Shown here: one piece after another, positions 40,361-63,420 of the stretch
How positions within the stretch are numbered: the first letter of the stretch is position 1
How the letters are laid out: the number at the start of each line of letters is the position of its first letter
Source: Ulota crispa
Lineage: Eukaryota > Streptophyta > Bryopsida > Orthotrichales > Orthotrichaceae
Direction of reading: 5' to 3'
DNA length: 64,000 bases
Assembly: GCA_963920765.1 (NCBI GenBank)
Contig: OY987244.1
Location: 9,116,501-9,180,500, forward strand
Position numbers and translations under genes: made by a program
Notes under the pieces: generated by a model
The model's database searches: none
The model's input: only the letters and a program-made list of their open reading frames with translations
What the model was told of the DNA's origin: nothing

Positions 40361-43300
40361 ATGGAGGACTTCGCCAACATCTTGCACCGCGACTACGGCC
40401 TGAAGCCGGGCGGCAAGAGCGCGCCCATGACCGGGGGCAGCCACAGCCGAGCTGGATCGTCGGGCGGTGCGGGCCTGGGCCAACGCTCGGGATCGGCGTC
40501 GCGGATGGCCAACGACGACGTCTTCAGCTCTGTTTTCAACCCCTCACCTGTCAACGGAGTGGGCGCCAGGTGTGTACGTCTGCTTTGTCTGTCTTGGACC
40601 GCGAATCCTCGGAGTTCAGTTTGGTCTCTCTGGCTCAGGGTTGCGAAAGTTGTGAACCGCTTGGTGTGCAAAGATATGCGACATTTAAAGTTCTCAGCCT
40701 GTGGAAATCCGAGGTCGAGGATTCGCTCTATGGTGCAATAATTAGGGATTAGATGTCTGCTTCGGTGGAGTGATTGACAGAAATTCACGGGGTGTTTGGT
40801 ATTTTGTGTTAAGAATGCTTTCGATGCAGTTTTCTTTACGCGGATCGGCTCATCGTTGTTGATCTAACAAATGCGAACCAGTCCTGTGATAGGGTTTACG
40901 AGTCAATACATTTCTATAGGACTCGATCTTTGTTTCGAATGGACCCTGAACTTTTTCTTACTAGCGGGTATGTGTAACTTTCCAGTCGCTTATCACGGAA
41001 TATAGGCCGTTGGTCATAAAATCGGCACTTCAGGCACGTAAAGAATGTAGTTTATTATTTTTGGAATTTCCAGATTTTTAGATACTCTCTTTAGCTTTCG
41101 TAAGGGAATTTAAACACTCCAGGGTATGAATCACCTGGATGTGGTATGCAAATGCTATCAAGTTTTATTGGTACTGGTAGATGACCTAAACCGAGACAAT
41201 ATCTGAAGTTCAGATGTTCGACGTCGTTACACTCGATATGGATTTATTGCGCAAGATTTTGGGTGTCCGGTTAGGTAGGTGTTGCAATTATCCAGTTAAA
41301 TCCGGACTCGAAGCAGGTCTCTCTCTAGCAATCATTTAAGTCATTTAGAATTTTATACACAGAAGAAGTATTGAACATATACTTTCAGTTACTCAGCTCA
41401 TAAACCAGCTATGTTGTTCGATTTAGCGTTCTCTTTTTAAAGATGCCAGTAAATAGTCATACCAGAACGGTAGCGTGTCGATGGAACGAGGTTGTGGTAA
41501 ACAACGACTAAGGCAACTCGAATTTTGGCTGAAGTCTTTGAAAACCAGTCCTTACCTCCATTCTGCTTGTATACCCTTTCCTCAGTGCAGGGCAATTTCT
41601 GACACTGATATAAGGCATTAGAAATTTTGTCGACCAAGCTGTCTACTGGAACTGCATCTAAAGGTGTTGACCCTTTCTGATATTGCTCGTGTCTTTTACC
41701 GAGGCGTGTGTTTAATCCCGTTCCTGACCCTACCATCTCAGAAAATAGATTTCTTGGCACCAATTCCATGATCAAATAGTGAAAGATGCTCCCTTGTGTT
41801 GGCCTCTCCATGAGATGCACATGATAACAAGAAATATCGTTCAAGCACTTAAACGGAGCTTGCTGTCCTCCAGCCAAACTGTGAGAAAAGATGGGCTCCT
41901 TCGTTTTCCAAATACCCTATGTCAAAACTAAGATTATTTCATCCTCAGGTCCAGATACAGAGGCATTCACCCTGTAACCCACTACCACCCCGAGCTGACA
42001 TAGATCGCTCTGAAGATCGTATTCAACTCTTCATCAGTACAAATACTTCCATCCCATCACTTCAGAAAAATCTTAGCTTTGCCCAAACATTTGTGGAAAA
42101 TCCTAGTCTCAGGGTCTCTGCTACTCACCGATAACAACAGTTATGGCACCTGCAACAGATCTCGCAGTACGTGCTCAGCGGGTGCATGGTGCAGTTTGCA
42201 CACGTTTGGTAGGACGAGGCTGTGAACGTGGAGTGGCATGTTGCAAATGTGCAGAAGCAGTAGCTCGGGAGCTCTCTACGACGACGTTTTCGGCGGGGCC
42301 CCGACCGGAGTGAGGCCGTCCAGCAATGACGCCTTCGGCGACCTGCTGGGAGGGTTCAACGCCTCCGGCACCAGGCCGCCGCAGGCCAGCCAGAACTCCT
42401 TCACCGAAGACTTGCTGGGAGGATTCGGCGCCTCCAAACCGGCGCAGGCAGCGGCGGCCCACGGGTCTTCTAGTTCTTTGGACGACATTTTCTCCGGGGG
42501 AGTGGGCACGCACGGGCGATCGTCGTCGCACAACAGTTTCGCGAACCACGACGACGACCCGTTCGGGTCGTTCGGCGTGCCGAAGGCGGAGGCGAAGGCG
42601 ACGCAGTCTCAGGCGCTGTTCGACGATGATTGGAGCTTCGGCGCGTCGAAACCGAGGCCTTCGTCGAGAGGGGCGGCGGCGTTGCACGGCTCGATGGACG
42701 GCGACCTTCTGGGGGGGTTTTCGAGCTCGTCGGGGCGATCGAAGCAGGCGACGGTGTTCCGATCTCCGCAGTCCAGCCCTCCGCGAGCGAAGCAGTCGGA
42801 ACCCGTGTTCGACGAGTTCCTGCCGGGGTTCGGCGGTGGCGAACAGGGCAAGGCGAAGGCGGTGTCGGACGCGGATGCGATGCGGGGCATTCCGATCATA
42901 AGCGCGGACGAGGACGACGTGTTCGGCAGCGTCCCGAGCTCGACGTCGGGGGCGACGCCGGATCCTTTCGGGGACATTCCCGGCGCCAAGTCGAGCGGCG
43001 AGGGCGATCCCCCTCGGGGGCCTGGCAGCGTTGCGGCCTTGGATGCGGACGAGATGCGCGGAATCCCGGCCATGAGCTCGTCTCCGATACCTGACGACGA
43101 TCCGTTCTCATCGGGTGCGGAGGCGGATCCTTTCGCCAACATCATTGCAGGATCGGTTCCTCCGCCCGCGGCGTCTTCTTACGCGGACCCGCTGGACGTG
43201 TTCGACCTGCCTCCCGCCGCCTCCGTTCCGTCTGGCGGCGGTGGCGGCGAGGGAGCGAGCGGGGGGTTCGGCGACGGGAGCGGATCGTTCGACCCGTTCG

Positions 43301-45234
43301 ACGGGTTTCCGCACCCTCCGCCCGTGGCGACGGCGAAGGCGAAGGCGAAGGAGGATGGCACTCCGAGTCGGTCGGGATCCGGGTCGGAGGGCAGGGAGGC
43401 CGGATCTCGCGGTTCGAGCGCGTGGGAGGAGAGGCAGGGTTCGAGGAGGGGCTTCGGCGGCGTTCCGTTCAACGTGGACCTGAACGAAGCTCCGGAAGTG
43501 GCGTCGCCGTCTTATCCGTCGGGAGCGGCGTTCGAGGAGGGGACGGAGACGGGGTCGAACGGGTTCGCGGCGAAGGCGGACGGCGAGCCGAAGTTCGACG
43601 AGCCGTCGGTGGGCGCGGGCGACGAGCGGCGGCGGAAGCACGACACGGACAAAGTGCCGGTGGACATCTTCGGGGAGAGGTGGGTGACGGTGGACGACGT
43701 GAAGCTGGTGACGGCGCCGTCGGCGGCACGGGCGCCTTCGCGGGCCCCTCCGAGGCCCGGGTTCGAGAGGAGGAGGAGCTCCAGGGGCTCGGCGAACCAC
43801 AGGGACAGCGCGGGCGAGAGGAGCAGGGGGAGGTCGGACGAGCTGCCGGCGTACAGGGGCAGCAGCAGGTCGAACGGGGAGGAGGCGTCGAAGGAGGCGG
43901 AGCTGGCGCGGGAGCGGGCGGCTGCCCGAGACCGGGAGGTGGCGCTGGTGCAGAAGGAACGGGAGGCTGCGGACCGGGAGAGGGCGGCGAGGCAGAGGGA
44001 AAGGGCGGAGAGGCAGAGGGAGAGGGAGAGGGAGCGGGAGCGGGTGAGGGAGCAGGAGGCGGCGGCGAGGAGTGGCGAGGCTGCGAGGGAGAGGGCGGAC
44101 GGCAGAAACGAGGCGTCGAGCGGTCGAGACGACGAGGCCGCGGAGAGGGCGAAGAGAGCCGGGGACAGAGCCGCCAGGGAGGCACAGCAGCGGGTGGAGA
44201 AGGCCGCCGCGGACAGGGCGATCGCGGAAGCCCGAGAGCGCGCGGAGAAGGCGGCATCGGCGAGAGCGGCGGCGGCGCGGGAGAGCGCCCGGGAGAAGGA
44301 GCAGCGGGAGAAGGAGCAGAGGGAGCGAGAGGAGCGGGAGAGGAGAGAGCGCGAGGAGAAAGCGAGAAGAGCGAGGGCGAAGGAGGAGAGGGAGCGGGAG
44401 CGGGAGCGGCGGGAGAAGGAGGAGAGGGAGCGGGAGCGGGAGCGGCGGGAGAAGGAGGAGAGGGAGAAGGAGCGGGAGCGAGACAGAGAGCGCGACCGGA
44501 GGCGGGAGAGAGAGAGGGGCGCGGCCGAGCAACCCCGAGGCGCGAGCGCGAGCAGTCGGGCGACGAGCGAGCCGAGGCAGCGACCGTCCACGAGCCAAGC
44601 CGCCGCCGCCGCCGCCGCCCCCGCCGGAGTCGACGTTCGGCGGCCGTCGGCTGGAAATCCCGTGTACTCGTCGACGGGAAGCTCGCCGGCGTTCAGCCCG
44701 GCGCCCAGGAGACCGCAGGCGCCGGTGAAGGCCGTGGACGACTGGACGACTCTGCTGACGCAGACGGCGCCGACGGGCGACGAGTTCCAGGACATGCCGG
44801 GGGAGACCGCGGAGAGGAGGAAGCTGCGGCTGGAGAGGCACCAGAAGACGATAGAGCGGGCGCAGCTGGCGCTAAAGGAGAAGAACGACCGCGACAAGGC
44901 GTTGCTGATGGAGCAGGCGGAGAGGAGCAGGTCCGCGGGGAACCTGGATGCGGAGGTACGGCGGTGGGCGACCGGCAAGGAGGGGAATCTGCGGGCTCTG
45001 CTGTCGTCGCTGCACCTGGTGCTGTGGCCGGAGTCGAACTGGAAGCCGCTGTCTCTGACGGACCTGATCACGGGCATTTCCGTGAAGAAGGCTTATCAGA
45101 GGGCGATCCTGTGCGTGCACCCGGACAAGGTGCAGCAGAAGGGGGCGACGGTGCAGCAGAAGTACACCGCAGAGAAGGTGTTCGACCTGCTGAAGGAGGC
45201 GTTCGCGAAGTTCAACTCCACGGAGCTGTATTGA
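40361..45234 (+). CDS. Auxilin-like J-domain protein, copy A, two exons, intact
   Basis: Exon 1 (40,361-40,569) and exon 2 (42,255-45,234) join at GT-AG borders to give 1,062 residues. The N-terminal half is low-complexity and carries three DLLGGF segments and several DPF tripeptides ([30 protein letters not shown]), the kinds of motif that bind clathrin and adaptor complexes. Residues ~612-825 are almost entirely Arg/Glu/Lys/Ala, probably a long charged helix. The last ~90 residues form the J-domain typical of plant auxilins ([20 protein letters not shown]), with HPD at 1025-1027 and the family end [17 protein letters not shown]. Such proteins recruit and activate Hsc70 to strip clathrin from vesicles in the cytosol. 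Exon 2 is very GC-rich compared with its surroundings, and that lack of stops produces long false frames on both strands. Convergent partner: the copy at 58,532-63,420. Confidence 0.93.
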
Positions 45235-46449
45235 GCCAAGGGGGGCGACGGAGGACGACGCCCGGCGAGAGGAGGCGGACGGGGTGGGCTTCGGGTCGGG
45301 GTCGCTTCCGCTGGTGTGTACAGGAGTCGAGAGGCGGCAGTCGTGGGCGTCCGTCCGTGGCGGTGCAGATTCGAGAGCCAGCGGTCGTGCATGAGGTGCG
45401 GCCGTCCCCCTGGGAGCAGGAGGACGGCGAAGGAGAGCGCAAGGCGAGAACGACGCGTTGCGCACGGCGGCGACGGGAGGCGGGTGCGCATGGTTTTCGA
45501 GACGTACCGACACATAGTGTAGGCTTTCTTACAATCCACGTGGTGGATGGTGATTCTTGAGCGCCTTTAGGGCTGCGGCAAGCAACGTGCAGCCGGAGTG
45601 GACGCCGTGAGGGCATCCTTCTGTTCATAAACGTAGGTAGCGGCAGCGAGGCTTTGCAAGCCGCCATTGGCTGCAGAGGGTGGTAGGAAGTAGCCGTTGG
45701 AGATCGGCGCCGGGGGCTCCGTTCTATTCTTGAGGGGAGGAGGGGGTTGGGTAGCAGCCATTTTGGTCTCTCGCTTGAATGGGCGTGTTCGGAGACAGTA
45801 GGATAGGAGCGCCGAACGCAAGTTGGGGCACATTTGGCGAAGTGTATGTTAAAACGATTTATTGTAATTTGTGGATGCCGATGCCGGCGGTCTTTTCAAC
45901 GAATTGCATGGGCGAAGACGATGTGAGGGTGCGTGGTCGGTTCCGGTTGCGGGAAGGTCGCGGTGTATGATGGGGTCATGTAAGGTGGTGAGGAGGCACT
46001 GACGGTGGCCTAGGGCTGGTTCTTGGACGCTTTGGAGTGCAGCAGCAGCTGTTTTGTTCTGCATGTGGTGTCAACGGACGGCCAGTTTGGAGGATCGGTG
46101 GACGTTCACGTGGAGCATTTGTTTGGTGGCAACAATATTGGGTATTGCAAAAGCGGTGCTTTGGATGCAAATAGACTTCATGGAATGGAATGGATAACTC
46201 CGATGCAAATGCACCTTGGCACGAGTGATTTGAGTGATGTTCCATTGAGTCCATAGATTGGGGTGATTCGTGCGAGTGTAACGTTGTTGGACCGCTTGGA
46301 TCGGATGCAAGGGTTTGGCAACAGGAGTCCATCCAATGATGTGAGTGCGATGTTGCTACGAAGGTGTTCGTTCATCGTCTACATTGCGACTCTGAGCATC
46401 TTGTCCAAGTTGCTCGTCGGTTTTTTTGTGGTGGCGAAGGAGGATGTCT
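42158..46449 (+). repeat. Arm 1 of a long inverted duplication (4.29 kb)
   Basis: The arm begins at GATCTCGCAGTAC, 97 bp before exon 2 inside the auxilin intron, covers all of exon 2 (42,255-45,234), and continues 1.2 kb past the stop to GGAGGATGTCT. Arm 2 at 57,317-61,771 is its inverse. Lengths differ by 163 bp, fully explained by a 200-N gap standing for 35 bp plus two single-base differences. Wherever I compared them the arms looked identical. The 1.2 kb after the stop (45,235-46,449) contains the 3' UTR and no recognised gene. Confidence 0.93.
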
Positions 46450-46771
46450 GCGTTTGTTTGTTGCGTTTATTTGTTGTGTTTATTTAATAACCTTTATTTA
46501 GTGTTCATGTCCCACTGAGGTTCGCCCTTTATTTGAATCCGAAATGGCGAAGGCACCAAATTATGGTGGTGAGTAAATTTTGGAATCTTCCTGAAGGAGG
46601 AGCTGCGATTTGAAGTAAGTTTAGTGTTCAATTTGAGTTTCCTCCATATTGCATTCCTGTTGTTTTGGTGGTTAGTGGAAGCTAAATTGGAAGTACGCCT
46701 CTTGCCCACTAAAAATTTGGATGAATGTTGTCACAAGAGAACCTATGACGAGGTTTCATATTTAATTAAAT

Positions 46772-46833
46772 GGGGAACAAGTAAAAAAAGGTGAAAAACT
46801 CCGGGGAACAAGTAAAAAAAGGTGAAAAACTCC
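46772..46833 (+). repeat. Two identical tandem copies of a 31-bp unit
   Basis: GGGGAACAAGTAAAAAAAGG starts at 46,772 and again at 46,803, and the two 31-bp units are identical by eye, which indicates a recent duplication. Confidence 0.9.
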
Positions 46834-46910
46834 TTTGGGCTCTCCTGTGGGTAGTGATGGCCCTTCTATTGAAATTTCAAGTGAAATTCAAATATGTTTT
46901 TGGACTAATT

Positions 46911-46990
46911 TCACTTGGAATGTTTATGTTATACAAATCAAAATTCATTCACTTGGAATGTTTATGTTATACAAATCAAAATTCATTCAC
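46911..46990 (+). repeat. Two identical tandem copies of a 38-bp unit
   Basis: TCACTTGGAATGTTTATG starts at 46,911 and 46,949, and the copies are identical by eye, with the first few bases of a third copy at 46,987. Confidence 0.9.
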
Positions 46991-48007
46991 CTTTGAATTC
47001 TTTTTCATTCATAGGGGTTTCCGGTCACTATTTGGAACTAAAACATTTCTTTGTATTAGGTGGTAGCTACTTGATAGTTGCATTGCATGCTCATTTGAGA
47101 AATTAGGGTCATGGATTTGGAAGGGGCTCTTCAATTTTGAAGTGACAACAAGAAACACTATATCATCATAAGTGGTTATTGCCTAATTTTATACACAAAA
47201 ATTCCCATTTTTTCATTAGAAGTTCTTGTAGCTCCTAAAAAACTTAATCTTTATGCTCATCCTCATTCAATCACAAGTATTTTAAAAATTGTTTGGATTT
47301 TTGGCATTCTTTTATTGTAGCACCATCTAGAACCCTTGAAGTTCAAAATCCTACAATGACTATTATATTTTAATGTTTATTAGTGATCTTATAACAATTA
47401 TTCAAAAATTTCAAAATTGCCTTATAGAAACAAGAAAAATACCCTTGACATTTAGGAGTTAAGAAAGAGTGATTTAATTATGTGTTTTGTGTTTTTGCTC
47501 AACATGCGCCCAAGAATGCAAGCAAACCACAAAAAAAAGGATATTATCATCCCATGTGCCTGTTTATCTTTCATAGTATACAATTAGTAGTAATTTTCAT
47601 CCAAATTTTGCCAAAAATAGTGTATGTTTGAGATAAATTTAACAACTGTTTCTAGTTGAGTTTTTTTTAGTGTTGAAGGGGCCATGCCAATTAATATATT
47701 GTAGTTAAAAAGTTGGAAACGAGTGCCTTCCATTTTGTGCTCTTAAAGTCTTAGTTTACCTTCTATGTTTGTACCAATATTAACTTGTTGCCCATGTTGG
47801 AGTTGCCTAAGTTTAACATGGTTACATCCACATACTTTGCTAGAGAATTTCAAGTTCATTTTTTTGGCTACATAAATGATGTAGCAAAGGCTTTTTTTTC
47901 CATATTTTGAGGATTGGCTCACTTAACAAGGCATTATGAATATTTCATCTATTTAGATTTTGTTTATTCTAAAGACTTTTGATCCCAAAAAAAATTCATT
48001 TTCTTAA

Positions 48008-51000
48008 CCCTTAAATGTCAAACCGTGCCACAATGACCAATACAGAGGGTATTTAGTGTATTTGAGGACCCTCTGGTATGCGGATTCAATTGGAAATTTC
48101 AGGGGTGTGTACCACCATCTTCCTCATCAATTTGCAATTGTTGTGAAGGAATTTTGATGTGTTTTGCAATTTCTAGAAGCAATTATACAGTGCTCCTGCT
48201 ACGGCATATGTTGTTCTTTGCTTCCTATGGAACCCGGAGGACTCTCGGGTGCGTTTTGGTTCACGAGTTCATCCACTTTGCAAGTTGGCAGCCCTTTTTG
48301 GGTTTTGGCAGGATGGAGCCGTTCTCTACGGATGTTGAATGGCGCGGAGTGGGGAGTCTTTCTGCTACCTTTGCAATTTCAAGAGAGTGGTGAGGATGGA
48401 TTGTTCATGCTCTTCAATGTTGGGACGTAGCGAGAATTAGGTTTTCGGCGATTTTAGAGGAGGCGCTTGTAATGATTGTAGGTAGTGGTTTCTATTTTGG
48501 GCAGGGACTAATGTGGGAGGTGAATTTCGTGTGTGTGAGGGTGGAGGTCTTGGTCTCTCCTGTGATGAGCTCCACATGCTTGCCGTTGCAAGCGGTGGAG
48601 TTTGTTGAGGAAATTGCAACCCTGTCTGAGTGGGCGCGAGACCATGGAGCAACAAAATTGCAGCTGAGATTCATTATTCAATTGACATGCCCCTTTTGGA
48701 TGTGTGAGCAACGACCTCCCCCTCATACCTTTTGATCTGCCGGCACAACCGACCCCCAGTGGCACAAGTTTTTATTTAGACGCCACATTCAACACATTCT
48801 CCGTTGGAGAATGGCTAGACAAAGGAGATCCTCAAGGATTTAGTTCGGATGTGAATTGATTGACTTGTTTCCGTCTTATCCAGATTTGGTAGCCTCCAAC
48901 AATGGTTTGAAGGAGGCAAGGGGCCTACGAGGCAACAAGCGCTCAACAAGCACTTCAATCTCCGCGTTCTTAGGCCCTCGGCAAGGCAGCACAATCTCTG
49001 AGTTCTCACGTACAACAATGACAAAGATTACTTGCCAATTCAGAGGAAGTAGTGCAACACAAAATGGCCCAATTTCCACATCTGCAAACCGGTATTATTC
49101 CACCTGCAACCAACCATCTCGAGAGTCTAGATCAAGCATCAAACGGGTCAGCAACAACAACATTGCAAGAACAACGTATAGACAAGAGTGGAGTGGCAGT
49201 GTTGGGTCACCCGCTTTGGCTAGGAGGCCAGGAAGGATGCTTCCCACATCCTTTGGAAAGGGCAAGTGATCCATTCAGTGATCTCGCGGCAAATGAAGGG
49301 AGCATGTTATTGGACGCAATTCGGGAAGGTGGAGACGACGGGATGGTGGGACAAGGCCGGGCGGGGGAGAAGGGATATACAACAATCCGAGTCTTCAACC
49401 CCTACAACAGCCAAAAACCGTGCTACTGCGATTGGAACAACGGGTCCGTCTCGTGGAGCGGATCAACGTGGGCGGGTCAGGCGCGGCCATGGACGCAACA
49501 TTAGTGGGGGCAAAAAAGCTTCTCAATCTGCTCTCGAGAGGGGGGCATTTCATCAATGACCCCAAGCTCTAGAAGGTTGGATTCCTCCCAAGATTGCAGT
49601 GCTTGAAAGGAGTCCAATTTCTTTGCGTTCACAATTGACAACACAAGCAAGGGCTAGGTAATTCTCTGAACTTACTTTTTCCTTGAGGTGTACATGCATG
49701 GGCTGCTGCAATAGCTACATTTTGTACAGCTAGCTCAATAGTGGAGAACTGCTCAAGTTTAGCAGTGCTTGCTTTTGTCTCCGATTGCAACATTCAAGTT
49801 CATGATAATCTTCTATAAGTGTTACTCCTTTGCATAATTGGGGAAGAATAAGAGATCCTAAACACATGCATGTTGTAGAGTTCTCACTATCAAATGATAA
49901 GTTTAGGGTGCATCTAGTGTTATGGTATCCATAGTCTCATACGTTTCTTTGAGGTAAATTACACTCATGCTTCTCACTCCCCATGTGTGTTTGCCTCTGT
50001 CAATTGAGAGTTAGTGACGATGTGCAAAAAGAATGTGTTGTCCATGTGTTTGTAGGAGGTCCCCTTCAACTTTGTGCATGGTGATTGGCTTGAAAGCGAG
50101 CAATGACTTTGATTAGGCGCTCAAAATTCCTAACAACGGAGATGTCGAAATGAATAGAACTGCGGGTTACAAGAGACGCTCCCAGGCTGGGTATGCCGCT
50201 TCAAGTTGTCTGGTCTTCAATTTCTAGTACTAGGTTACTACTTAGTTCGATATGACAATAATTGACTTAGACATCTGCTAGAGGAGATTGGCTCTATTTC
50301 CTCGATCAATTTTGGCAGTCATGTTGAGTGCCAATGACCTCCTGAAACTGCTCCATTTTCATTCAATTCAAATTTTTAGTCATGGACTTTGTGAACAGAC
50401 ATTCTACTTGCCACCACTGTGTACTGAATTCCTTAGCTTGGTCAATGTTCATGGCACTAATCTCTTATTCCATGCTGCAGGGACGCAAATTCTACATCCA
50501 ACAGAGTTCTGCCAAAGTTGATACTGGAGAACAGGGTTGTCACTTTTGAGGGGGGCCACACTACTACCGGGGGGAAACTAATCACGCATTGCTATAGCAA
50601 TATACCAACTTCTGATTGCTATCCATGCATTCCACACTCCGTGCCGACAGGCAAAGACGGAGGTACTTTTGACACCCTGGGCACTCAACGGGCACTAAAT
50701 GTTGAAGGCTTTGTGACTGAACCAATTTTTGCCACAAATTTTGCACCTCTAGATGATACAACACTTCTTCTTGTTGCCAAATCTCTGTCTGATCCAAGTG
50801 ACATGGACTGGCAAGGGGAGTTTCAAGACTTCAACAACGATAGCAACATCAACATACCACCATCTCCCACATGTTTATTTGAGGAGCTTCCACTGTCGGA
50901 GCTTGGGATGTACAATTGCGCCAAAGACACCTCTGGGTGGACATTTGAGCAAATATGGGCAGACGACCAATGACAAGAGTCAGTCCTTGCACTCCATGGC

Positions 51001-54000
51001 ACGTGTGACTTCCATGGACCCCAGCCTAGTGCAATGGGCGTGCTTTGCCCTTTGCCAGCAGACCCAATCTACTATTTCATGAAGTTCTGGACTCCTCAGA
51101 TGTTGCAACTAATTGTCAAAGAAACAAATAGGTCAGCTTCATTGCTTTCAATTTCAATCTTTATTTTTTAGCAAGTAACCTCCATATTTGTGATATATGA
51201 AGTATCCTAAACCACGGAAGTGTTGTATGTTGTTCAGGTACGCTAGTTACCCTGACCACAAGAAGCCTTATCTCACGAACGGGCGTAAAAGTTGGGTGGC
51301 ACTGACAAACAAGGAATTCCTCTGCTAGTTTGGTGTACTCATTCTGATGGGTTTGAAAGTGCTGGCGCATTGGAGGCTATGCTGGTCTATAAACCCTTTC
51401 TATAGATGTCTAATCATAACCTCTGTCATTAGTCGTAAACAATTTGAAGCGATTGTACAATGCATGCATTTGGTGAACAATGCCAAACTAGTCAATGACC
51501 GAGAGGACTAGAGTTACAACAAGATAGGGAAGGTGCAAGCACTGATTGAGGGTTTTTCTTGAATCAGCTAGTCCCTATACAACAAGGAGGCAAAATGCTC
51601 TATGGATGAGATTATGGTACCCTACAAGGGACGGTAATGCGGAATTAGGCAATACATGAAAACAAAGCCTGTCCGTTTTGGAATCAAGATTTGGGCATTG
51701 GTGTCTAGCCAATCCAGATACACTTCCAAATCCAATTTATAATAATATCAATTACGTTTTTCTTGAATGTCTTCTAAATTATTTCACTGACTATGTTGCA
51801 AAATCTTTGTGACATCTTTCTCTTCACCTCTCATTGTCTTGCAATGGACAATATCCCCTAAGCATACAGATGTGGGTATGAGAGTCATTGTCTTCTGGGG
51901 CATTCAAACCTTCAAGTGTAGATCTAGTAATGAAGCATTGCATTGAAAAGTATTAGAGTGGAACTATGTATCTCTGTTTCAAAGAATAATGGCTTATCTT
52001 TTACTAATACTAGCTTGGTGCTTGTGCATGTAGGTACGTTTCTAATGTAATGGTGTACTTGGGTGCTAGATCTGAAGTAGAGGTTGGGGTCTTGGTAGGA
52101 GAAGACGCTGTTCTTCAAGCAATATGTGGGCTTGAGCATTGTGGGCACACTATCGTTACAAATTACTTTTTCACAAGTGTGAAGCTTTTCATGAGACTCT
52201 TGGAGAGAGGCTTCTACGCTACTGGAACGGCTAGGAAGGGGTCTAAGGGTTTTCCACCCTCCCTTGCAGGTTTCCCAAATAGTAACCTGCCTCCAAGGAG
52301 GACCTTGATAACCAAGATGCATAGGTCCCAAGTTATTTTAGTCATTTGCTGGATAGATTCAAAGCCCGTTTGGCTTCTCAGCACCGCAACAAATCGTGTT
52401 TGAGAGGGCACTGTAGCGGGGCATTGGGTCAAGCATGACCGGGTTGACTTTTCCACAAGCCTGATCTTGCTGGAGTATCAAACCAACATGCGCGGAGTCG
52501 ACGTGGTTGATTAGCAACGTGGGAACTATACAGTTCAAACGCAATTCCACAAACGGTGGCACAAGATTCTAATGTTTGTTTTGGATTCGTCATGCCTCAA
52601 TGCTTGTGTGTTGTATCGAGAGGATGTTTTACGGGTGGGCTTATCGGTTCAACCGCGGTTGCAGTGGCACTAGGACTTGGTAATGGCGCTTATGCATCCA
52701 CGGGTGGAGGCAAGAACTATACAAGGCTCGCTTTGCAATCTTACTCGTCCAAGGTTCCACAAGATTGAGGGGCAGCCTACCCATTGTTGAGCATGCGTAG
52801 TTTGTAAAAAATGCACTCGACATTTTTGCGGTGGCTGCAGTTGCAAGTTCATGTGCAATGGTGCATGTTACGTGCTGGCACATACTCAGCTTGACTATGT
52901 TCTACGTGGTTGCCGTCGCTGTTGATCGTGAAGGAGGGTGACATGGTTGGATTGTTTGGACATGATGCATAATACCGTAGGAAGAACGATTCAACATGCA
53001 GTGTTTGTGTGAGGTGATTTTTGGGACAATGAAGTGGTCGGCTAGCGATATGTTATGGTAGTAAACTTTTGCAGGACAGATACTGAAGTGGGCTTTGTAG
53101 TAGATGCTTTGTTTGTATGGTAGGTACCGAAGCAGGCATTGGTAGTTCACAGCCTCGCATACTAGTTTTGAAGTTTGAAAAGTTTCAATGTTTGTACCTT
53201 GTTTACCTTGTGCTAGTAAAGTCAAAATATATATTTTCTTCAGATGTTGGGCCTTTCTTGATACAATACCATTGAGCTTGAATGTTTTTGTTGAAAATTT
53301 TGACAACCGTCAATGTTTGAGCAACCTAGCATGCATCCCTTTGCGTACATGAACCTTCTTTTGTTATGTATAAAACGCACCTCTGCCTATCACACGTCGT
53401 ATGCAGCTCCTCATAGGAAGCATGGAAGGGGTACTATCTTCTTGTGCCACAGATTTCAATAGGATGTGAATATCTAAAGTTGATTATGTTTTCTTCAAAA
53501 AGCTAAACCCCCCAATACATGATTTGTCGAGCACCGACTGCAACATGTCTAGCCATTGTTATGGCACTCATCGATTTGGAAAGACAAAAGAGAGCTTTGG
53601 AATTACCTTGGATCATCGTAGTTTGTGAACTGTGTGTGCTGCCCCTTTTTGTCATCAAGTGCTAGAGGTGTAGTGGCGCTTGTTCTAGTCTTTCCAATTG
53701 TTCTCACAATCCATGGCTCTCTCTTGGCCATTCAACCATGCACGTAGTCTGACGTAACCGCTCTACAAAAGTCCCTTTTTTTTACGTGAATTACAAAGAG
53801 TATTGTCTCATGTGATATCTGACTTTTGTATCATTGAAAGAAAGCCATGAGAACATGGATTATAGTGGGACATTCTTTCCCAACAGAACAGCGGACTCGC
53901 TATACTTTGGATAACGTTGTTCTCTGCTTGTATGAACCCTAGAGGACAATGAACCTCAAGACAACTCGTTTGATGATTCAATGTATTTCTGACCGTTGTT

Positions 54001-54681
54001 TCTTTATCCTCTTGCAGTGCTGGGTGCGAGTAAGTGCACACTCATAGAATGAGAAGGCAGATCCTGCTCTACGATCGTCGATGCTTACTCTTAGAACCAA
54101 GCACACCAGCAGAGAACCAACCTGTCAACATAATCTTGAATATCAAGGGGAATGAAGTTGTTTGATCCACCTTAGTACTAGGATACTGCAGTAGCTGCCA
54201 AGTTTGATCCATGCATTCATGGCAAGCTGAAACGGCTAAAGCCGTGGCAAAGCCTTGTCTCCCAGATTTGCAAACTCTATCATCCTTGCCTATGTCAAAC
54301 TAATGAAAAGATAGCGGTCTTCATGAACAAAACAGTGTTTTGTTCAAAGCATCCCGCCATCATGATTGCAAGGCGTGCTCACCCGCCATCTCAAAAGTGC
54401 ACCCGCTGACATAGGGTGTTGCCGTGGCGTGTACACTGCCAAAAACTGCTCAAATACCCGTCACCTGTTGTGACCGTAGACCCACAAGTGAATCCAGAGC
54501 TTTTGTAAATCACCGATTGATTGTTTTGAAAGAAATTGCATTCGGACCAAGTGCTCGCTAAAGAATCATCAAATCGGTTTGACCATGTAGCAAGACCGCC
54601 AAATCCACAATCGTGCCCCCCAAATGACCGTATCCGTGCTCTACGGTCCTGCTCATACGGAGCTCACGGGACGTTTAGGGG
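48008..54681 (+). mobile_element. Decayed piggyBac transposon, 6.67 kb
   Basis: The left end CCCTTAAATGTC and the inverse of the right end, CCCCTAAACGTC, agree at 10 of 12 bases. TTAA flanks both (48,004-48,007 and 54,682-54,685). A broken piggyBac transposase lies inside in the plus orientation. The stretch 48,008-50,500 has two open frames (48,856-49,269 and 49,052-49,504) without recognised domains, and 52,930-54,681 has no gene I can identify. The element is much longer than an animal piggyBac of 2-3 kb, so it may have picked up or received other DNA. It lies wholly within the spacer between the two auxilin arms. Confidence 0.8.
50518..52925 (+). pseudogene. Broken piggyBac transposase gene
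   Basis: 50,518-50,973 gives the N-terminal side (WTFEQIWADDQ). Then, in other frames, YYFMKFWTPQMLQLIVKETN (~51,070-51,130) and SYPDHKKPYLTNGRKSW (~51,245-51,295). SMDEIMVPYKGR near 51,600 carries the first catalytic Asp, followed by MKTKPVRFGIKIWALV. 52,050-52,403 contains GHTIVTNYFFTSVKLFMRLL and FYATGTARKGSKGFP, where the family's second catalytic Asp (VTDNYFTS) is Asn. Then come CWIDSKPVWLLSTATNR and NMRGVDVVD with the third Asp, directly followed by a stop. RWHKILMFVLD and a Cys-rich end (CVVCKKCTRHFCGGC) match the C-terminal zinc-binding domain. Multiple stops and frameshifts plus a lost catalytic residue make it inactive. Confidence 0.88.
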
Positions 54682-54685
54682 TTAA

Positions 54686-55395
54686 ACAACTTGTTAACCA
54701 ACTCATACTAAGTTAACATAGTTGCTCTTTAGTGTTGTGTTAATTGCTTAAGATAAAGAGGTTACAGATCAAGCTTAACAACAAGCTACAAAAGTGTGCA
54801 AAGTATAAAACTCACAAGGCTTTTGTTAGACAAGTTCATTGAATCTTAGCCATAGATTGGATGTACTAATAAAAAAGAAATCCATACTTGTTGGCATTTG
54901 GGAATCTTGAATAGAATGAGAACCTTTCAAAATACATGATATTAATCTCTATAATAAATTGACACATTTGCAACCTATTTTTAACTTAGTCCCCACTCAA
55001 ACATGACTACATAAGGCAAAATTAAATGATAAAAGACACTACTAAACTCACACAAAAAAATCCATCATATTCTACCCCCACCACAAAACTTCCAACACAA
55101 ACAACACTTTCACTAATCTAATTTATCAATGGAGGGGCTTTTGTATTACCAATGCAAAGGCTTCAAATTTTTTAAATAAATGACAAGAAAAAAAAATTCC
55201 CTCATCAAATATTAATAACTTCTTAGAGGCACAATTATTTCTTCATGCATGATGTCAATGTAAACAAAACCTTGCAGAGTGATGTTCACTACAAACCATA
55301 TCATCAAATTCAACACTTCAAGCAATTTATGAAATGATTATAAATACTAGAACTATAACAGCCAACACACCATCATGAACATAAAAACATACATA
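54686..55395. other. AT-rich DNA between the piggyBac and Tc1-type elements
   Basis: No gene, array or element end is recognised here beyond the TTAA at its left border and the TA at its right border. Confidence 0.5.
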
Positions 55396-56921
55396 CAATG
55401 ACTCACAAAACCAAGTCAATGCCTAGTGTTGCTTAATTTAACTTACTGTATCTACTTCATAAATGAGAATCAACATGTGTCATTAAAGGTAGGTGAGAGG
55501 TATCCAGGTATCCACTAATGCATGGAAGCCTTAATGAAAATTTTGAAAAAGTGACTGGACATTTCATTTTCAAATGAGAGTTGCTCACTAACTTAGCAAT
55601 GAGTCTTGTTAGTAGGAAATGGCCACTGTTTCTTCTCTTTTAGTAGTACATTGCACTTTTAGTTCTTCTACACCATGACAAGGCCATTATCTTTTGAAAA
55701 GCAAAATATTGTAGTATCCTTGCTACAAAAGGGATGGAGCACAAGGAGAGGAGCCAAATGGCTTAACTATTAGTCAATCTAGAGTTGAGAGAATTCAAAA
55801 GAAACAATTTCTTAATGCTAAACCATCTTTAAGAGGAAGACCAACTATAATTTCAGACCATTTGATATGAGGGCATGTGTGAGAGCATAGACAATTGGCA
55901 AATTTGATATTGCTATAGAAGCATGCAAATTGGTTAAGCAACAATTTGGTAATAAGATGAGTGTCTAGATATTGTGATGTGCTTTGACTTTTGCTTGTTT
56001 GAAGGCTTGTTGTGTGAAGAAGAAACCTCTTCTTTCACAAAAGAATATTCAAGTTTGTTTAGATTTTACCAAATCTCATGAAAATTGGAGTGTTGCAAAT
56101 TGGAAGCAAGTGATTTCCTCAAATGAGACCAAGATCAACCATCCTTGCTCAGATGGTTGTTATTGGTGTTGGGCTCAAGAAGGAGAGGGTCTTACAGATC
56201 AAACAGTGAAACATGGAGGAGGTTGTATAATGATTTGGAGTTGCATGAGTGCAATTGGACTTGGTTTGATTTGCAAAATAGAAGGTGGAATGAATCAATA
56301 TATCTACCATGAAATATTAGAGGCTAATCTTTATGGCACTTTTCTAAAGTATGGCATAGAAGCATCTAGAATCATTTTTCAACATGACAACAATCCTAAA
56401 CACACAACAAAATCAATGAAAGAGTGTTTGTCTAAACAACCTTCCAATGTTTTAAAGTGGCTTGCTCAATCACCTAACCTAAATCCTATAGAACATCCAT
56501 GGACAACTCTAAAACTAGAAGCTCAATTATTATCCAACACCTCCAAAAGGTCTTCTAGAATTATGGGAGCGTATATTTCATACTTACAATTCTATCACTT
56601 CCACAAAGTCTCAAAAACTCTATGAGAATATGCCACAAAGAATGCGGACAATTATTTATGCAAAGGACAAGTGACCTGATTTTTTAGTGTGTATTGATAG
56701 ACAAGTTCAAAATTAAGTCAGTGGGGGTTTGATTCTAGATTTTTAGTGTTTCCATATAATAAGTTAATTTTGTCTTTGATTTCCATGTGAATAATCAATA
56801 CAGCTTCTACTCTTTAAAGTGAATTTTAACTTGCTAAATAGTTGAATTGTTCACTCCCTGTGATGACATTGCTAATTTACTGAAAAGTAGTGAAACGCTC
56901 ACTTAATATTGTGAGTCACTG
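55396..56921 (+). mobile_element. Decayed Tc1-type DNA transposon, ~1.5 kb
   Basis: The right end read inward is CAGTGACTCACAATATTAAG, flanked by TA at 56,922. The proposed left end is CAATGACTCACAAAACC at 55,396, flanked by TA at 55,394. The ends share CARTGACTCACAA and diverge beyond, so the left boundary is less certain than the right. The length and TA flanks are as expected for Tc1/mariner elements. A broken transposase lies inside in the plus orientation. Confidence 0.75.
55680..56625 (+). pseudogene. Broken Tc1-type (DD34E) transposase
   Basis: About 55,685-55,860 gives an N-terminal helix-turn-helix region (SFEKQNIVVSLLQKGWSTRR, then SLRGRPTIISD) with stops. The open frame 55,984-56,625 gives the catalytic domain: NWSVANWKQVISSNETKIN, VKHGGGCIMIWSCMS, IIFQHDNNPKHTTKS and LAQSPNLNPIEHPW. 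The spacing of the last two fits DD34E. The family's first catalytic residue is the Asp of SDETK, which here is Asn (SNETK). The second Asp and final Glu are kept. Besides the lost Asp, upstream stops show it is dead. The sequence resembles fungal and animal Tc1 transposases rather than the plant DD39D mariner type, by recall of motifs. Confidence 0.88.
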
Positions 56922-56923
56922 TA

Positions 56924-57316
56924 TGAAGGAAACATACACAAGAAACAAACATTTAACATTGTTAAAAACGTAAAACCCTTGGAAACAAAATAACAAATGT
57001 AAAAGATTCATCGTAAAATTTAATTTATGCCTAAAAATGATAAATAAATACGCCCTCACAAATTACTTTAAGATGATCACATTAGCATTACACCGAAAGG
57101 AGAAATCACACGAAAAATATTTCAACCAGAAATAGTGTCAACAGGTGTTCTTCGGTTAGTGACCCACATATTAAAAACAAGTTCATCCTCAATCCCCAAA
57201 GACAATTGACACATACTCAACCCACCCAACCAACATTACTCCCCTCGTCATGTCCACGACTGTCACGTAAAACAAGGCCATAAAGTACCCACAAACAAAA
57301 AATCTGAAGGCATACA
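56924..57316. other. Spacer between the Tc1-type element and arm 2
   Basis: About 390 bp without a recognised feature. It differs completely from the DNA next to the matching end of arm 1 at 46,450, so the duplication stops cleanly at 46,449/57,317. Confidence 0.6.
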
Positions 57317-60300
57317 AGACATCCTCCTTCGCCACCACAAAAAAACCGACGAGCAACTTGGACAAGATGCTCAGAGTCGCAATGTAGACGATGAACGAAC
57401 ACCTTCGTAGCAACATCGCACTCACATCATTGGATGGACTCCTGTTGCCAAACCCTTGCATCCGATCCAAGCGGTCCAACAACGTTACACTCGCACGAAT
57501 CACCCCAATCTATGGACTCAATGGAACATCACTCAAATCACTCGTGCCAAGGTGCATTTGCATCGGAGTTATCCATTCCATTCCATGAAGTCTATTTGCA
57601 TCCAAAGCACCGCTTTTGCAATACCCAATATTGTTGCCACCAAACAAATGCTCCACGTGAACGTCCACCGATCCTCCAAACTGGCCGTCCGTTGACACCA
57701 CATGCAGAACAAAACAGCTGCTGCTGCACTCCAAAGCGTCCAAGAACCAGCCCTAGGCCACCGTCAGTGCCTCCTCACCACCTTACATGACCCCATCATA
57801 CACCGCGACCTTCCCGCAACCGGAACCGACCACGCACCCTCACATCGTCTTCGCCCATGCAATTCGTTGAAAAGACCGCCGGCATCGGCATCCACAAATT
57901 ACAATAAATCGTTTTAACATACACTTCGCCAAATGTGCCCCAACTTGCGTTCGGCGCTCCTATCCTACTGTCTCCGAACACGCCCATTCAAGCGAGAGAC
58001 CAAAATGGCTGCTACCCAACCCCCTCCTCCCCTCAAGAATAGAACGGAGCCCCCGGCGCCGATCTCCAACGGCTACTTCCTACCACCCTCTGCAGCCAAT
58101 GGCGGCTTGCAAAGCCTCGCTGCCGCTACCTACGTTTATGAACAGAAGGATGCCCTCACGGCGTCCACTCCGGCTGCACGTTGCTTGCCGCAGCCCTAAA
58201 GGCGCTCAAGAATCACCATCCACCACGTGGATTGTAAGAAAGCCTACACTATGTGTCGGTACGTCTCGAAAACCATGCGCACCCGCCTCCCGTCGCCGCC
58301 GTGCGCAACGCGTCGTTCTCGCCTTGCGCTCTCCTTCGCCGTCCTCCTGCTCCCAGGGGGACGGCCGCACCTCATGCACGACCGCTGGCTCTCGAATCTG
58401 CACCGCCACGGACGGACGCCCACGACTGCCGCCTCTCGACTCCTGTACACACCAGCGGAAGCGACCCCGACCCGAAGCCCACCCCGTCCGCCTCCTCTCG
58501 CCGGGCGTCGTCCTCCGTCGCCCCCCTTGGCTCAATACAGCTCCGTGGAGTTGAACTTCGCGAACGCCTCCTTCAGCAGGTCGAACACCTTCTCTGCGGT
58601 GTACTTCTGCTGCACCGTCGCCCCCTTCTGCTGCACCTTGTCCGGGTGCACGCACAGGATCGCCCTCTGATAAGCCTTCTTCACGGAAATGCCCGTGATC
58701 AGGTCCGTCAGAGACAGCGGCTTCCAGTTCGACTCCGGCCACAGCACCAGGTGCAGCGACGACAGCAGAGCCCGCAGATTCCCCTCCTTGCCGGTCGCCC
58801 ACCGCCGTACCTCCGCATCCAGGTTCCCCGCGGACCTGCTCCTCTCCGCCTGCTCCATCAGCAACGCCTTGTCGCGGTCGTTCTTCTCCTTTAGCGCCAG
58901 CTGCGCCCGCTCTATCGTCTTCTGGTGCCTCTCCAGCCGCAGCTTCCTCCTCTCCGCGGTCTCCCCCGGCATGTCCTGGAACTCGTCGCCCGTCGGCGCC
59001 GTCTGCGTCAGCAGAGTCGTCCAGTCGTCCACGGCCTTCACCGGCGCCTGCGGTCTCCTGGGCGCCGGGCTGAACGCCGGCGAGCTTCCCGTCGACGAGT
59101 ACACGGGATTTCCAGCCGACGGCCGCCGAACGTCGACTCCGGCGGGGGCGGCGGCGGCGGCGGCGGCTTGGCTCGTGGACGGTCGCTGCCTCGGCTCGCT
59201 CGTCGCCCGACTGCTCGCGCTCGCGCCTCGGGGTTGCTCGGCCGCGCCCCTCTCTCTCTCCCGCCTCCGGTCGCGCTCTCTGTCTCGCTCCCGCTCCTTC
59301 TCCCTCTCCTCCTTCTCCCGCCGCTCCCGCTCCCGCTCCTCTCCTCCTCTCCCGCCGCTCCCGCTCCCGCTCCCTCTCCTCCTTCGCCCTCGCTCTTCTC
59401 GCTTTCTCCTCGCGCTCTCTCCTNNNNNNNNNNNNNNNNNNNNNNNNNNNNNNNNNNNNNNNNNNNNNNNNNNNNNNNNNNNNNNNNNNNNNNNNNNNNN
59501 NNNNNNNNNNNNNNNNNNNNNNNNNNNNNNNNNNNNNNNNNNNNNNNNNNNNNNNNNNNNNNNNNNNNNNNNNNNNNNNNNNNNNNNNNNNNNNNNNNNN
59601 NNNNNNNNNNNNNNNNNNNNNNNGCTGCTCCTTCTCCCGGGCGCTCTCCCGCGCCGCCGCCGCTCTCGCCGATGCCGCCTTCTCCGCGCGCTCTCGGGCT
59701 TCCGCGATCGCCCTGTCCGCGGCGGCCTTCTCCACCCGCTGCTGTGCCTCCCTGGCGGCTCTGTCCCCGGCTCTCTTCGCCCTCTCCGCGGCCTCGTCGT
59801 CTCGACCGCTCGACGCCTCGTTTCTGCCGTCCGCCCTCTCCCTCGCAGCCTCGCCACTCCTCGCCGCCGCCTCCTGCTCCCTCACCCGCTCCCGCTCCCT
59901 CTCCCTCTCCCTCTGCCTCTCCGCCCTTTCCCTCTGCCTCGCCGCCCTCTCCCGGTCCGCAGCCTCCCGTTCCTTCTGCACCAGCGCCACCTCCCGGTCT
60001 CGGGCAGCCGCCCGCTCCCGCGCCAGCTCCGCCTCCTTCGACGCCTCCTCCCCGTTCGACCTGCTGCTGCCCCTGTACGCCGGCAGCTCGTCCGACCTCC
60101 CCCTGCTCCTCTCGCCCGCGCTGTCCCTGTGGTTCGCCGAGCCCCTGGAGCTCCTCCTCCTCTCGAACCCGGGCCTCGGAGGGGCCCGCGAAGGCGCCCG
60201 TGCCGCCGACGGCGCCGTCACCAGCTTCACGTCGTCCACCGTCACCCACCTCTCCCCGAAGATGTCCACCGGCACTTTGTCCGTGTCGTGCTTCCGCCGC

Positions 60301-61771
60301 CGCTCGTCGCCCGCGCCCACCGACGGCTCGTCGAACTTCGGCTCGCCGTCCGCCTTCGCCGCGAACCCGTTCGACCCCGTCTCCGTCCCCTCCTCGAACG
60401 CCGCTCCCGACGGATAAGACGGCGACGCCACTTCCGGAGCTTCGTTCAGGTCCACGTTGAACGGAACGCCGCCGAAGCCCCTCCTCGAACCCTGCCTCTC
60501 CTCCCACGCGCTCGAACCGCGAGATCCGGCCTCCCTGCCCTCCGACCCGGATCCCGACCGACTCGGAGTGCCATCCTCCTTCGCCTTCGCCTTCGCCGTC
60601 GCCACGGGCGGAGGGTGCGGAAACCCGTCGAACGGGTCGAACGATCCGCTCCCGTCGCCGAACCCCCCGCTCGCTCCCTCGCCGCCACCGCCGCCAGACG
60701 GAACGGAGGCGGCGGGAGGCAGGTCGAACACGTCCAGCGGGTCCGCGTAAGAAGACGCCGCGGGCGGAGGAACCGATCCTGCAATGATGTTGGCGAAAGG
60801 ATCCGCCTCCGCACCCGATGAGAACGGATCGTCGTCAGGTATCGGAGACGAGCTCATGGCCGGGATTCCGCGCATCTCGTCCGCATCCAAGGCCGCAACG
60901 CTGCCAGGCCCCCGAGGGGGATCGCCCTCGCCGCTCGACTTGGCGCCGGGAATGTCCCCGAAAGGATCCGGCGTCGCCCCCGACGTCGAGCTCGGGACGC
61001 TGCCGAACACGTCGTCCTCGTCCGCGCTTATGATCGGAATGCCCCGCATCGCATCCGCGTCCGACACCGCCTTCGCCTTGCCCTGTTCGCCACCGCCGAA
61101 CCCCGGCAGGAACTCGTCGAACACGGGTTCCGACTGCTTCGCTCGCGGAGGGCTGGACTGCGGAGATCGGAACACCGTCGCCTGCTTCGATCGCCCCGAC
61201 GAGCTCGAAAACCCCCCCAGAAGGTCGCCGTCCATCGAGCCGTGCAACGCCGCCGCCCCTCTCGACGAAGGCCTCGGTTTCGACGCGCCGAAGCTCCAAT
61301 CATCGTCGAACAGCGCCTGAGACTGCGTCGCCTTCGCCTCCGCCTTCGGCACGCCGAACGACCCGAACGGGTCGTCGTCGTGGTTCGCGAAACTGTTGTG
61401 CGACGACGATCGCCCGTGCGTGCCCACTCCCCCGGAGAAAATGTCGTCCAAAGAACTAGAAGACCCGTGGGCCGCCGCTGCCTGCGCCGGTTTGGAGGCG
61501 CCGAATCCTCCCAGCAAGTCTTCGGTGAAGGAGTTCTGGCTGGCCTGCGGCGGCCTGGTGCCGGAGGCGTTGAACCCTCCCAGCAGGTCGCCGAAGGCGT
61601 CATTGCTGGACGGCCTCACTCCGGTCGGGGCCCCGCCGAAAACGTCGTCGTAGAGAGCTCCCGAGCTACTGCTTCTGCACATTTGCAACATGCCACTCCA
61701 CGTTCACAGCCTCGTCCTACCAAACGTGTGCAAACTGCACCATGCACCCGCTGAGCACGTACTGCGAGATC
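57317..61771 (-). repeat. Arm 2 of the long inverted duplication
   Basis: Inverse copy of 42,158-46,449. It contains exon 2 of auxilin copy B (58,532-61,674), the last 97 bp of the intron, and 1.2 kb of 3' flank. It looks identical to arm 1 except for the run of N at 59,424-59,623 and two single-base deletions within about 20 bp near 59,340-59,360. Confidence 0.93.
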
Positions 61772-63420
61772 GATTGCACTGACCACGATCAAAATTGAAG
61801 ATTAAAGAGAGTTCTGTGAAACTAATTATAGTAAGAAAATCGGACTGATCGACGATATAGTGGAGGGTCCATTCTAACTTATCGACGTTTATGCATTCAG
61901 CAATTCGTAGCAGGTGACCGGGGTATGGTTTTTAACAGAAGATGCGGACTGCTATGTTCCCGATACCCATCTTTCTGTTATCTCTGGGATCCTCCGGATT
62001 GGAACATGTTGTAAACCGAAACACAATGTTTTGTCAGGCCAACTTAGAAAGGCGACGATAAACAGCCAGTTAATGCTTTTCCATATGCATTCGGGATTTT
62101 TACTTAATATAGGATATATAAGCGAGCATCTGGAAATGAGACGTGGCTATCGATTCCGACATTTCGTCACGACCTAAGTAAGCTATATTGAATCTGTCAA
62201 AAAATATAGTTTCGATCTGGAATCGAATTTACGGGACAACAAACGTAATTCTCACAATAAAAGGCGACCTAGAGAGCCACCTTTCACGTCTGTTGTTTCT
62301 GAAGATCCTGTGTCAAGAATCGGCACTTGGACACAAGAAATGAACGATTGAATCTCGTTTAGGCGAGGGTAGAGACAGTAAGAATGTCACATTGGAGTGT
62401 CTAATCTGTTCAGGATTTGTCAGAAGCCTTTACAAAGAGTGAGCAGCAAACTGAGCTTCTTCAGATGAAAAGGAGAGAAGAGGAAGTACGCGGACTGGCG
62501 CTGATACCTATCAAGAGCAGATAAACACTTCAAGAACGGTGTAACATTCGGCTTTTCGCGACATATCTCACTTGGAGAAAGCGCCGAGAAAGGCGCGGAG
62601 TGTACGAGAAGACGTAAAATACAACAAAGACGTTCCACCAGAAAGCACGTCTCCTTTAAACTAAAAGTCTGGCAATCACTCTACTATCGTATAGATAAAC
62701 GGAGGTCAAAATTGCGTTTTAGACAGCATAAAATAAGGCTGTCGTCGTTATGGCACTCAGTGACGCGATTAAAGCTCATGCGCACGCAACAGTTTCCGTT
62801 GATCTCACCTACCGATTCTGAAAGAAAGCTTTAGGGTTCGCTCAAAAGAAAATGACAACGTCTACCGGTCAAGTAAATAAACCCTACCGTAGAGCAGCTC
62901 ACTCCTCAACAACCTGATCTCGTACAAACCTAAGTCCTTGACAACCAGATCCCGCACAATCTATTATTTGTGAAGCTCTGTGAACACCTCAGAGGAATGC
63001 GTATTATTCTCGGAATAAACCGCGCGAAAATTCGATCGCAAGGAATTGGGACGATGTGCAGTTGTGTGCTCATCAGATATTAAATCAGTGGGTGCAGTGC
63101 GTGACCATAACCTACTCAAGCAGAGCCTGAAGACGAGATCCGCATCCGTCATCAAAACTGCCAAAGCCTCGTCTGCTGTCGCCACTCTCGAACAGAGGTA
63201 CATACCTGAAGTTGCCGCCGTTGCCGGAGGGCGATGGATTGAAGACGGAGCTGAAGAGGTCGTCGTTGGCCATCCTCGGCGCCGATCCAGAGCGTTGGCC
63301 CATTCCCGGAGGGCCCGACGATCCAGCTCGGCTGTGGCTGCTGCCTCCGGCCATGGGCGTGCTACTGCCGCCTGGTTTCAAGCCATAGTCGCGGTGCAAG
63401 ATGTCGGCGAAGTCCTCCAT
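58532..63420 (-). CDS. Auxilin-like J-domain protein, copy B, two exons, interrupted by a gap
   Basis: Exon 1 is 63,420-63,206 (start [18 protein letters not shown]) and exon 2 is 61,674-58,532. The 1.53-kb intron (63,205-61,675) has GT-AG borders in the same phase as copy A. Exon 1 differs from copy A at about 15 of 70 residues and its intron shows no visible similarity to that of copy A until the last 97 bp. Exon 2 looks identical to copy A, with the same DLLGGF and DPF motifs, charged helix and HPD J-domain. In the assembly the Arg/Glu-rich stretch contains 200 N, and two nearby one-base deletions shift the frame, so the J-domain is out of frame as written. Both faults sit in low-complexity DNA at a contig edge, so sequencing error is more likely than a true lesion. 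Role as for copy A: clathrin uncoating with Hsc70. Confidence 0.82.
59424..59623. other. Assembly gap of exactly 200 N
   Basis: The round size suggests a placeholder. By comparison with arm 1, only 35 bp (44,306-44,340) lie between the matching flanks, so the true gap is probably much shorter. Confidence 0.97.

Follow-up and report, generated by a model that had tools for sequence, protein, structure and literature searches.

Two convergent auxilin-like genes of the moss Ulota crispa raise the question of how neighbouring genes can share a body without a single substitution behind first exons that have clearly diverged. Both lie in the window analysed here, a stretch of 64,000 nucleotides (contig OY987244.1, here C3, 9116501–9180500; coordinates given without a contig are those of the window) taken from an assembly of 274.8 Mb in 157 contigs. 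Gene A is on the plus strand. Its exon 1 (40361–40569, 209 bp) is an open frame from an ATG, ends at a GT donor and joins in frame to exon 2 (42255–45234), and the spliced product is a single open frame of 1,062 amino acids. Gene B runs towards it on the minus strand, with an exon 1 of 215 bp (63206–63420) that also has an ATG start and a GT donor and agrees with exon 1 of gene A in splice phase. Its exon 2 (58532–61674) begins behind the copy of the acceptor at 61674 and has an assembly gap inside, and its stop position is projected from the first arm of the repeat described below. A variable-first-exon cluster of the UGT1 or protocadherin type was rejected, because the constant exons are not common to the two transcription units; each first exon has an exon 2 copy of its own.

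The C-terminus of the gene A product gave its best match among the structures of the PDB with 3ag7_A (2.3e-35), followed by five auxilin chains (5e-19 to 2e-17); the auxilin J-domain structures matched after 3ag7_A were 1xi5, 1n4c and 1nz6. Gene A therefore carries a C-terminal J-domain of the auxilin type, while the generic Pfam DnaJ model scored 17.9 bits on it, below its cut-off. With these auxilin and auxilin-like proteins the moss pair has in common the C-terminal position of the J-domain and its HPDK motif, and its N-terminal part contains repeated DPF motifs, as in auxilin-like proteins. DPF motifs bind adaptors. From its domain, we infer that the product of the pair is an auxilin-like cofactor of clathrin uncoating. 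Unlike the auxilin references, the moss genes form a near-identical pair in which nearly all of the difference is confined to roughly the first 70 residues.

Comparison of the window with itself yielded the inverted repeat in two pieces, 42151–44305 against 61778–59624 with two mismatches, and 44341–46449 against 59423–57317 with two 1-bp gaps. The mismatches of the outer piece are at 42156–42157, just beyond the arm, and the outer 2.15 kb of arm 1 itself is free of mismatches. The four limits that the preliminary description had proposed proved correct: arm 1 occupies 42158–46449 on the plus strand (4,292 bp, made up of 97 bp of intron 1, exon 2 and 1.2 kb beyond the stop), and arm 2, its inverted copy, occupies 57317–61771 on the minus strand. 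The start of exon 2 (42255), which lies 97 bp into the arm, was likewise borne out, and the splice model built on it gives one open frame. Between the inner 2.1 kb of arm 1 and arm 2, the sole differences are single-base deletions at two places in arm 2, near 59348 and 59339. In all, there are 0 substitutions over about 4,255 comparable bases (95% upper bound of about 0.07%), and this identity covers synonymous sites, the 97 bp of intron and the 1.2 kb past the stop. The divergence of exon 1, if applied to the arms, predicts about 766 differences; the identity of the arms is far from chance. The arms had been described as identical, and a count of their real differences had been advised. Made on the assembly, that count leaves the statement standing for substitutions, and not for the two deletions and the 200-N gap of arm 2, the latter being untouched by the comparison.

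Outside the arms the two genes are very different. The first exons are 82% identical over 228 columns of DNA and 82% identical over 66 residues of protein, with a dS of about 0.43 and a dN of about 0.10, values that come from a small sample of 67 codons. In the rest of intron 1, in the upstream 5′ flank and in the inner flanks, no homology between the two loci was detected, a sensitive search included. Both the divergence of the first exons and the lack of visible similarity in the remainder of the intron had been noticed in the preliminary description. A search for the remnant of an older exon 2 (tblastn, E ≤ 1, with the low-complexity filter on) found none in the rest of the window and the following 20 kb. 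The arms are separated by a spacer of 10.9 kb (46450–57316), the ends of which have no homology to each other. It contains, on the plus strand, a transposase fragment at 55978–56625 (DDE_3, 1.1e-07; HTH_Tnp_Tc3_2, 0.0059, below its cut-off), which we read as Tc1/mariner-like. Elsewhere in the window, a tandem array at 24040–24977 consists of a short unit that is read as GGSIKKR/GGNIKKE repeats and has an inverted partner at 24908–24977.

The limits of the arms are also marked by their base composition. The noncoding 3′ part of the arm has a GC content of 0.57, compared with 0.40 in the spacer and 0.42–0.44 in the rest of the intron, and GC steps occur at the arm ends (0.43 to 0.55 at 42158, 0.49 to 0.36 at 46449 and 0.55 to 0.38 at 61771, with a weaker step at 57317). 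The steps would fit a long-term footprint of GC-biased conversion, but this cause was rejected: the median GC3 was 0.62 in 10 near-identical inverted pairs and 0.67 in 16 apparent singletons (p = 0.98), the single-copy status of the latter being judged from the scored candidates alone. The step at the arm ends may be partly the composition of the gene itself.

We consider it probable that the twin genes are best explained by recent gene conversion between old inverted paralogues. An old inverted duplication would have given rise to the two auxilin-like genes, and some 4.3 kb of one gene, beginning 97 bp ahead of exon 2 and ending 1.2 kb beyond the stop, would later have been copied into the other. 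Non-crossover homologous repair, either intrachromosomal or between sister chromatids, is the presumed route, and it would have spared exon 1, its promoter and the greater part of intron 1. The duplication looks old, judging by the dS of exon 1; the conversion event itself and its recency are what we infer, the recency from the complete lack of substitutions in the arms. In support of this reading, the sequence passes at both ends of the tract in an abrupt step from 0 substitutions to no detectable homology, and beyond it lies exon 1, at 82%. The pair thus combines a tract of near-identity with older homology elsewhere, and the near-identity reaches noncoding and synonymous sites, as expected of converted paralogues. 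Gene B probably had its own exon 2 replaced in place, since no remnant of it was found nearby and the J-domain matches in the genome (E ≤ 0.001) are limited to this pair and one other, on C10. Conversion would explain why an old first exon stands before a new body, why the splice phases agree and why no leftover exon 2 could be detected. Its likely effect would be a pair of almost identical uncoating cofactors, each under its own promoter and with an N-terminus slightly unlike that of the other.

The assembly gap inside arm 2 bears directly on this reading. The gap, which like the two deletions had escaped the preliminary description, is a run of 200 N (59424–59623), and only 35 bp occupy the matching place in arm 1. 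Arm 2 therefore consists of two contigs set side by side, and no contig spans it, which counts against conversion. The two 1-bp deletions lie within about 85 bp of the contig end at the gap, and they shift the exon 2 frame of gene B in the assembly as given. An assembly artefact could be suspected, in which a collapsed repeat consensus was written at both loci and masks a modest true divergence, and the gap with the two single-base deletions beside a contig end is what such a collapse might leave. The outer and inner junctions of both arms are, however, all free of gaps. The composition of the site also matters here. The 150 bp adjoining the gap on its low-coordinate side are 89% pyrimidine, and the gap is contained in the arm 2 copy of a stretch of 84% purine (44234–44533, plus strand), and no other 300 bp without N in the window have so strong a strand asymmetry. 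This position makes sequencing drop-out a natural reason for the break, and two contigs that end 35 bp apart, by the measure of arm 1, in such a stretch fit a drop-out better than a break at a repeat.

Further evidence on both readings came from other inverted pairs in the genome. A J-domain search of the whole genome (E ≤ 0.001) returned four matches, the pair of the window and the pair on C10, which is also on opposite strands. The first exons of the C10 genes bear only a weak resemblance to those of the window (about 50%, E of about 0.08), suggesting that the two genes of the window are each other's closest relatives, although this is not a comparison with an outgroup species. The C10 genes point apart, and the alignment of their arms covers 6,409 columns with 98.5% identity, with the differences concentrated before exon 1 and 2 differences in the outer 5.2 kb. 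Together with this pair, those on C4, C6 and C8 were chosen for having matches on opposite strands of one contig, loci with matches on a single strand not being taken, and all four have a near-identical core: 5.74 kb with 1 mismatch on C4, 5.75 kb at 98.6% on C6 and 6.3 kb at about 99.7% on C8. We examined the homology of the flanks in eight comparisons across the five pairs, each with a wrong-strand control. The outer flanks of C3 (82%, exon 1) and C8 (74%) show collinear diverged homology, and the control gave no match for either. The two longest stretches in the outer flank of C4 (64–70%) and the three longest in that of C6 (74–80%) had much weaker matches in the control. No homology was found in the inner flanks of C3 and C4, and the two C10 flanks were no cleaner than their control. 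From these alignments, four of the five pairs, that of the window included, look like a recent core within an older duplicate.

Some of these loci also have gaps at or near them. The C4 arm ends at C4:5865962, which is exactly a contig end, and is followed by a 200-N gap (5865963–5866162), so the assembled length of the arm may be short. On C8, two direct copies of 4.14 kb that are 100% identical (9768774–9772911 and 9773112–9777249) surround a 200-N gap; they look like an unmerged overlap of contigs and are probably a false duplication in the assembly. These places add to the case for a collapse at the auxilin-like locus as well. Against it, the same assembly keeps differences of 2.2%, 0.5%, 0.3% and 0.1% in four domain pairs, 1.4% at C6, 0.3% at C8 and 3% in the inner part of the C10 arms. 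Since differences of 0.1–3% are written in these pairs, any difference hidden in the arms should be small compared with that of exon 1. The collapse that the preliminary description had offered as an alternative keeps the room that the gap in arm 2 leaves it, is weakened by the gap-free junctions and the differences kept elsewhere, and appears unlikely to us.

A recent partial duplication, in which exon 2 and the 3′ flank of one gene landed, inverted, downstream of another and older first exon, would agree with the complete lack of homology immediately outside the tract on C3. It demands, however, that the insertion hit the correct site, in the correct orientation and splice phase, beside a first exon that is itself paralogous (82%, same phase), and that this gene lost its own exon 2, of which the window and the following 20 kb hold no detected remnant. 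The diverged collinear flanks at C4, C6 and C8 also suggest that old pairs become homogenised in this genome, and we regard such an insertion as quite improbable. Purifying selection alone, which would have kept the copies alike, finds its sole support in an arm that is mostly coding and is hardly credible if the assembly is right, given that synonymous sites, the 97 bp of intron and the 1.2 kb past the stop likewise carry no substitution and that exon 1, coding too, has a dS of about 0.43.

Recent gene conversion is supported, short of proof, by the dS of exon 1, the homogenised body, the search nearby that found no leftover exon 2 and the other inverted pairs. Several observations speak against it in addition to the split arm 2. 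With a dS of just about 0.43, some residual homology would be expected in the intron outside the tract, and none was detected; the C10 flanks are not clearly above their wrong-strand control; and the inner flanks on C3 and C4 show no homology.

We then surveyed neighbours across the genome, taken as genes of the same family 2.5–250 kb apart, and called a pair near-identical when the profile scores were within 0.6 bits and the frame lengths equal. Five Pfam families were counted with 293 of 368 rows (kinase 123/132, DnaJ 45/68, P450 75/93, ABC 17/19, LHC 33/56). The 75 omitted rows had low scores, belonged to second exons or domains or, in a few cases, were of another kind; among them were one direct and one inverted pair of diverged DnaJ neighbours and the LHC copy at C4:21771311. 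Pairs starting in the LHC cluster of C4 were removed from both classes. Large families were scored in part (for kinases, 124 of 1,009 candidates), and the pair counts are lower bounds. As run, the survey found 11 of 15 near-identical pairs inverted, versus 39 of 101 other pairs (p = 0.02). A pair on C10 (3.26/3.31 Mb) with a DNA difference of 0.12% had been misplaced by rounding; with its reclassification, the counts become 12/16 versus 38/100 (p = 0.007), the pairs being non-independent. Against an even split, 12 of 16 alone gives p = 0.08, and direct near-identical pairs (4/16) also occur; both points count against the conversion reading. Twelve of the 16 near-identical pairs were checked as DNA. 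Among the ten inverted ones (out of 12), six were identical, three differed by 0.5% or less and one by 2.2%; the two direct ones (out of four) were both identical. Three further families had no near-identical pair within 250 kb and gave three diverged pairs (two inverted, one direct), which stand outside the 100. When these three were added and the diverged class was limited to consecutive neighbours, a hand tally gave 23 inverted versus 36 direct pairs (p = 0.013).

These counts would be in keeping with a lasting regime in which gene conversion acts between inverted neighbours separated by tens of kb to some 200 kb. We put this forward tentatively, as a possibility somewhat short of an even chance. 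Inverted neighbours would be repeatedly homogenised and retained and direct ones lost or left to drift, and tracts ending in introns would produce genes with a common body and two independently evolving promoters and N-termini. The inverted placement would help such pairs to persist, as a crossover between inverted copies would flip the spacer and delete no gene. If this is true, pairs that are near-identical within older flanks, for the most part inverted and at distances of up to about 200 kb, would preserve traces of homologous repair in nature, with tract ends that can be measured; ages and trees of such paralogues would mislead, and short-read expression counts would be unable to separate the copies. 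Two other groups of similar genes were seen in the genome. Seven LHC (antenna-protein) genes at C4:21391382–21499621 lie on both strands and have just two distinct profile scores, likely a case of concerted evolution. Another antenna protein, at C1:24478100–24478900, has its best PDB matches in chains 8htu_9 and 7xqp_9 (449 and 425 bits), followed by long 9vfj chains at 347 bits or less and by 7dz7_V at 208 bits; 8htu_9 and 7xqp_9 are Lhcb9 of the moss Physcomitrium patens, which would point to a moss. For a second one, from C4, a long 9vfj chain ranks first, ahead of 8htu_U and 7xqp_a, with many other plant chains close behind, and its ranking does not discriminate. Two 2OG-oxygenase genes on different large contigs (C1:37234712 and C3:10336741) agree in both score and frame length for two exons, possibly the outcome of a recent copy between chromosomes.

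The 2008 Physcomitrella genome paper reportedly discusses the orientation of tandem genes and an inverted orientation bias. Among the matches listed in a literature search, the titles and abstract openings held nothing on this auxilin pair or on a regime of inverted pairs in mosses, and passages of PMC3729371, PMC13120521 and PMC4030171 contain nothing on inverted pairs. Efficient homologous recombination is known in Physcomitrella (PMC13120521), and PMC3045890 describes its tandem genes as highly similar and possibly evolving in concert via gene conversion. As in the Physcomitrella arrays, neighbouring paralogues are highly similar and gene conversion is proposed; unlike in those arrays, the tract of the auxilin-like genes ends within an intron and exon 1 stays diverged. 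Palindromes of sex chromosomes are homogenised by gene conversion in mammals and in willow (PMC7023750). The auxilin-like pair resembles them in its inverted copies and near-identical arms within divergent surroundings, and differs from them in that the arms are short (4.3 kb), the spacer is longer (10.9 kb), each arm carries one gene, and similar pairs are found on several large contigs of the moss.
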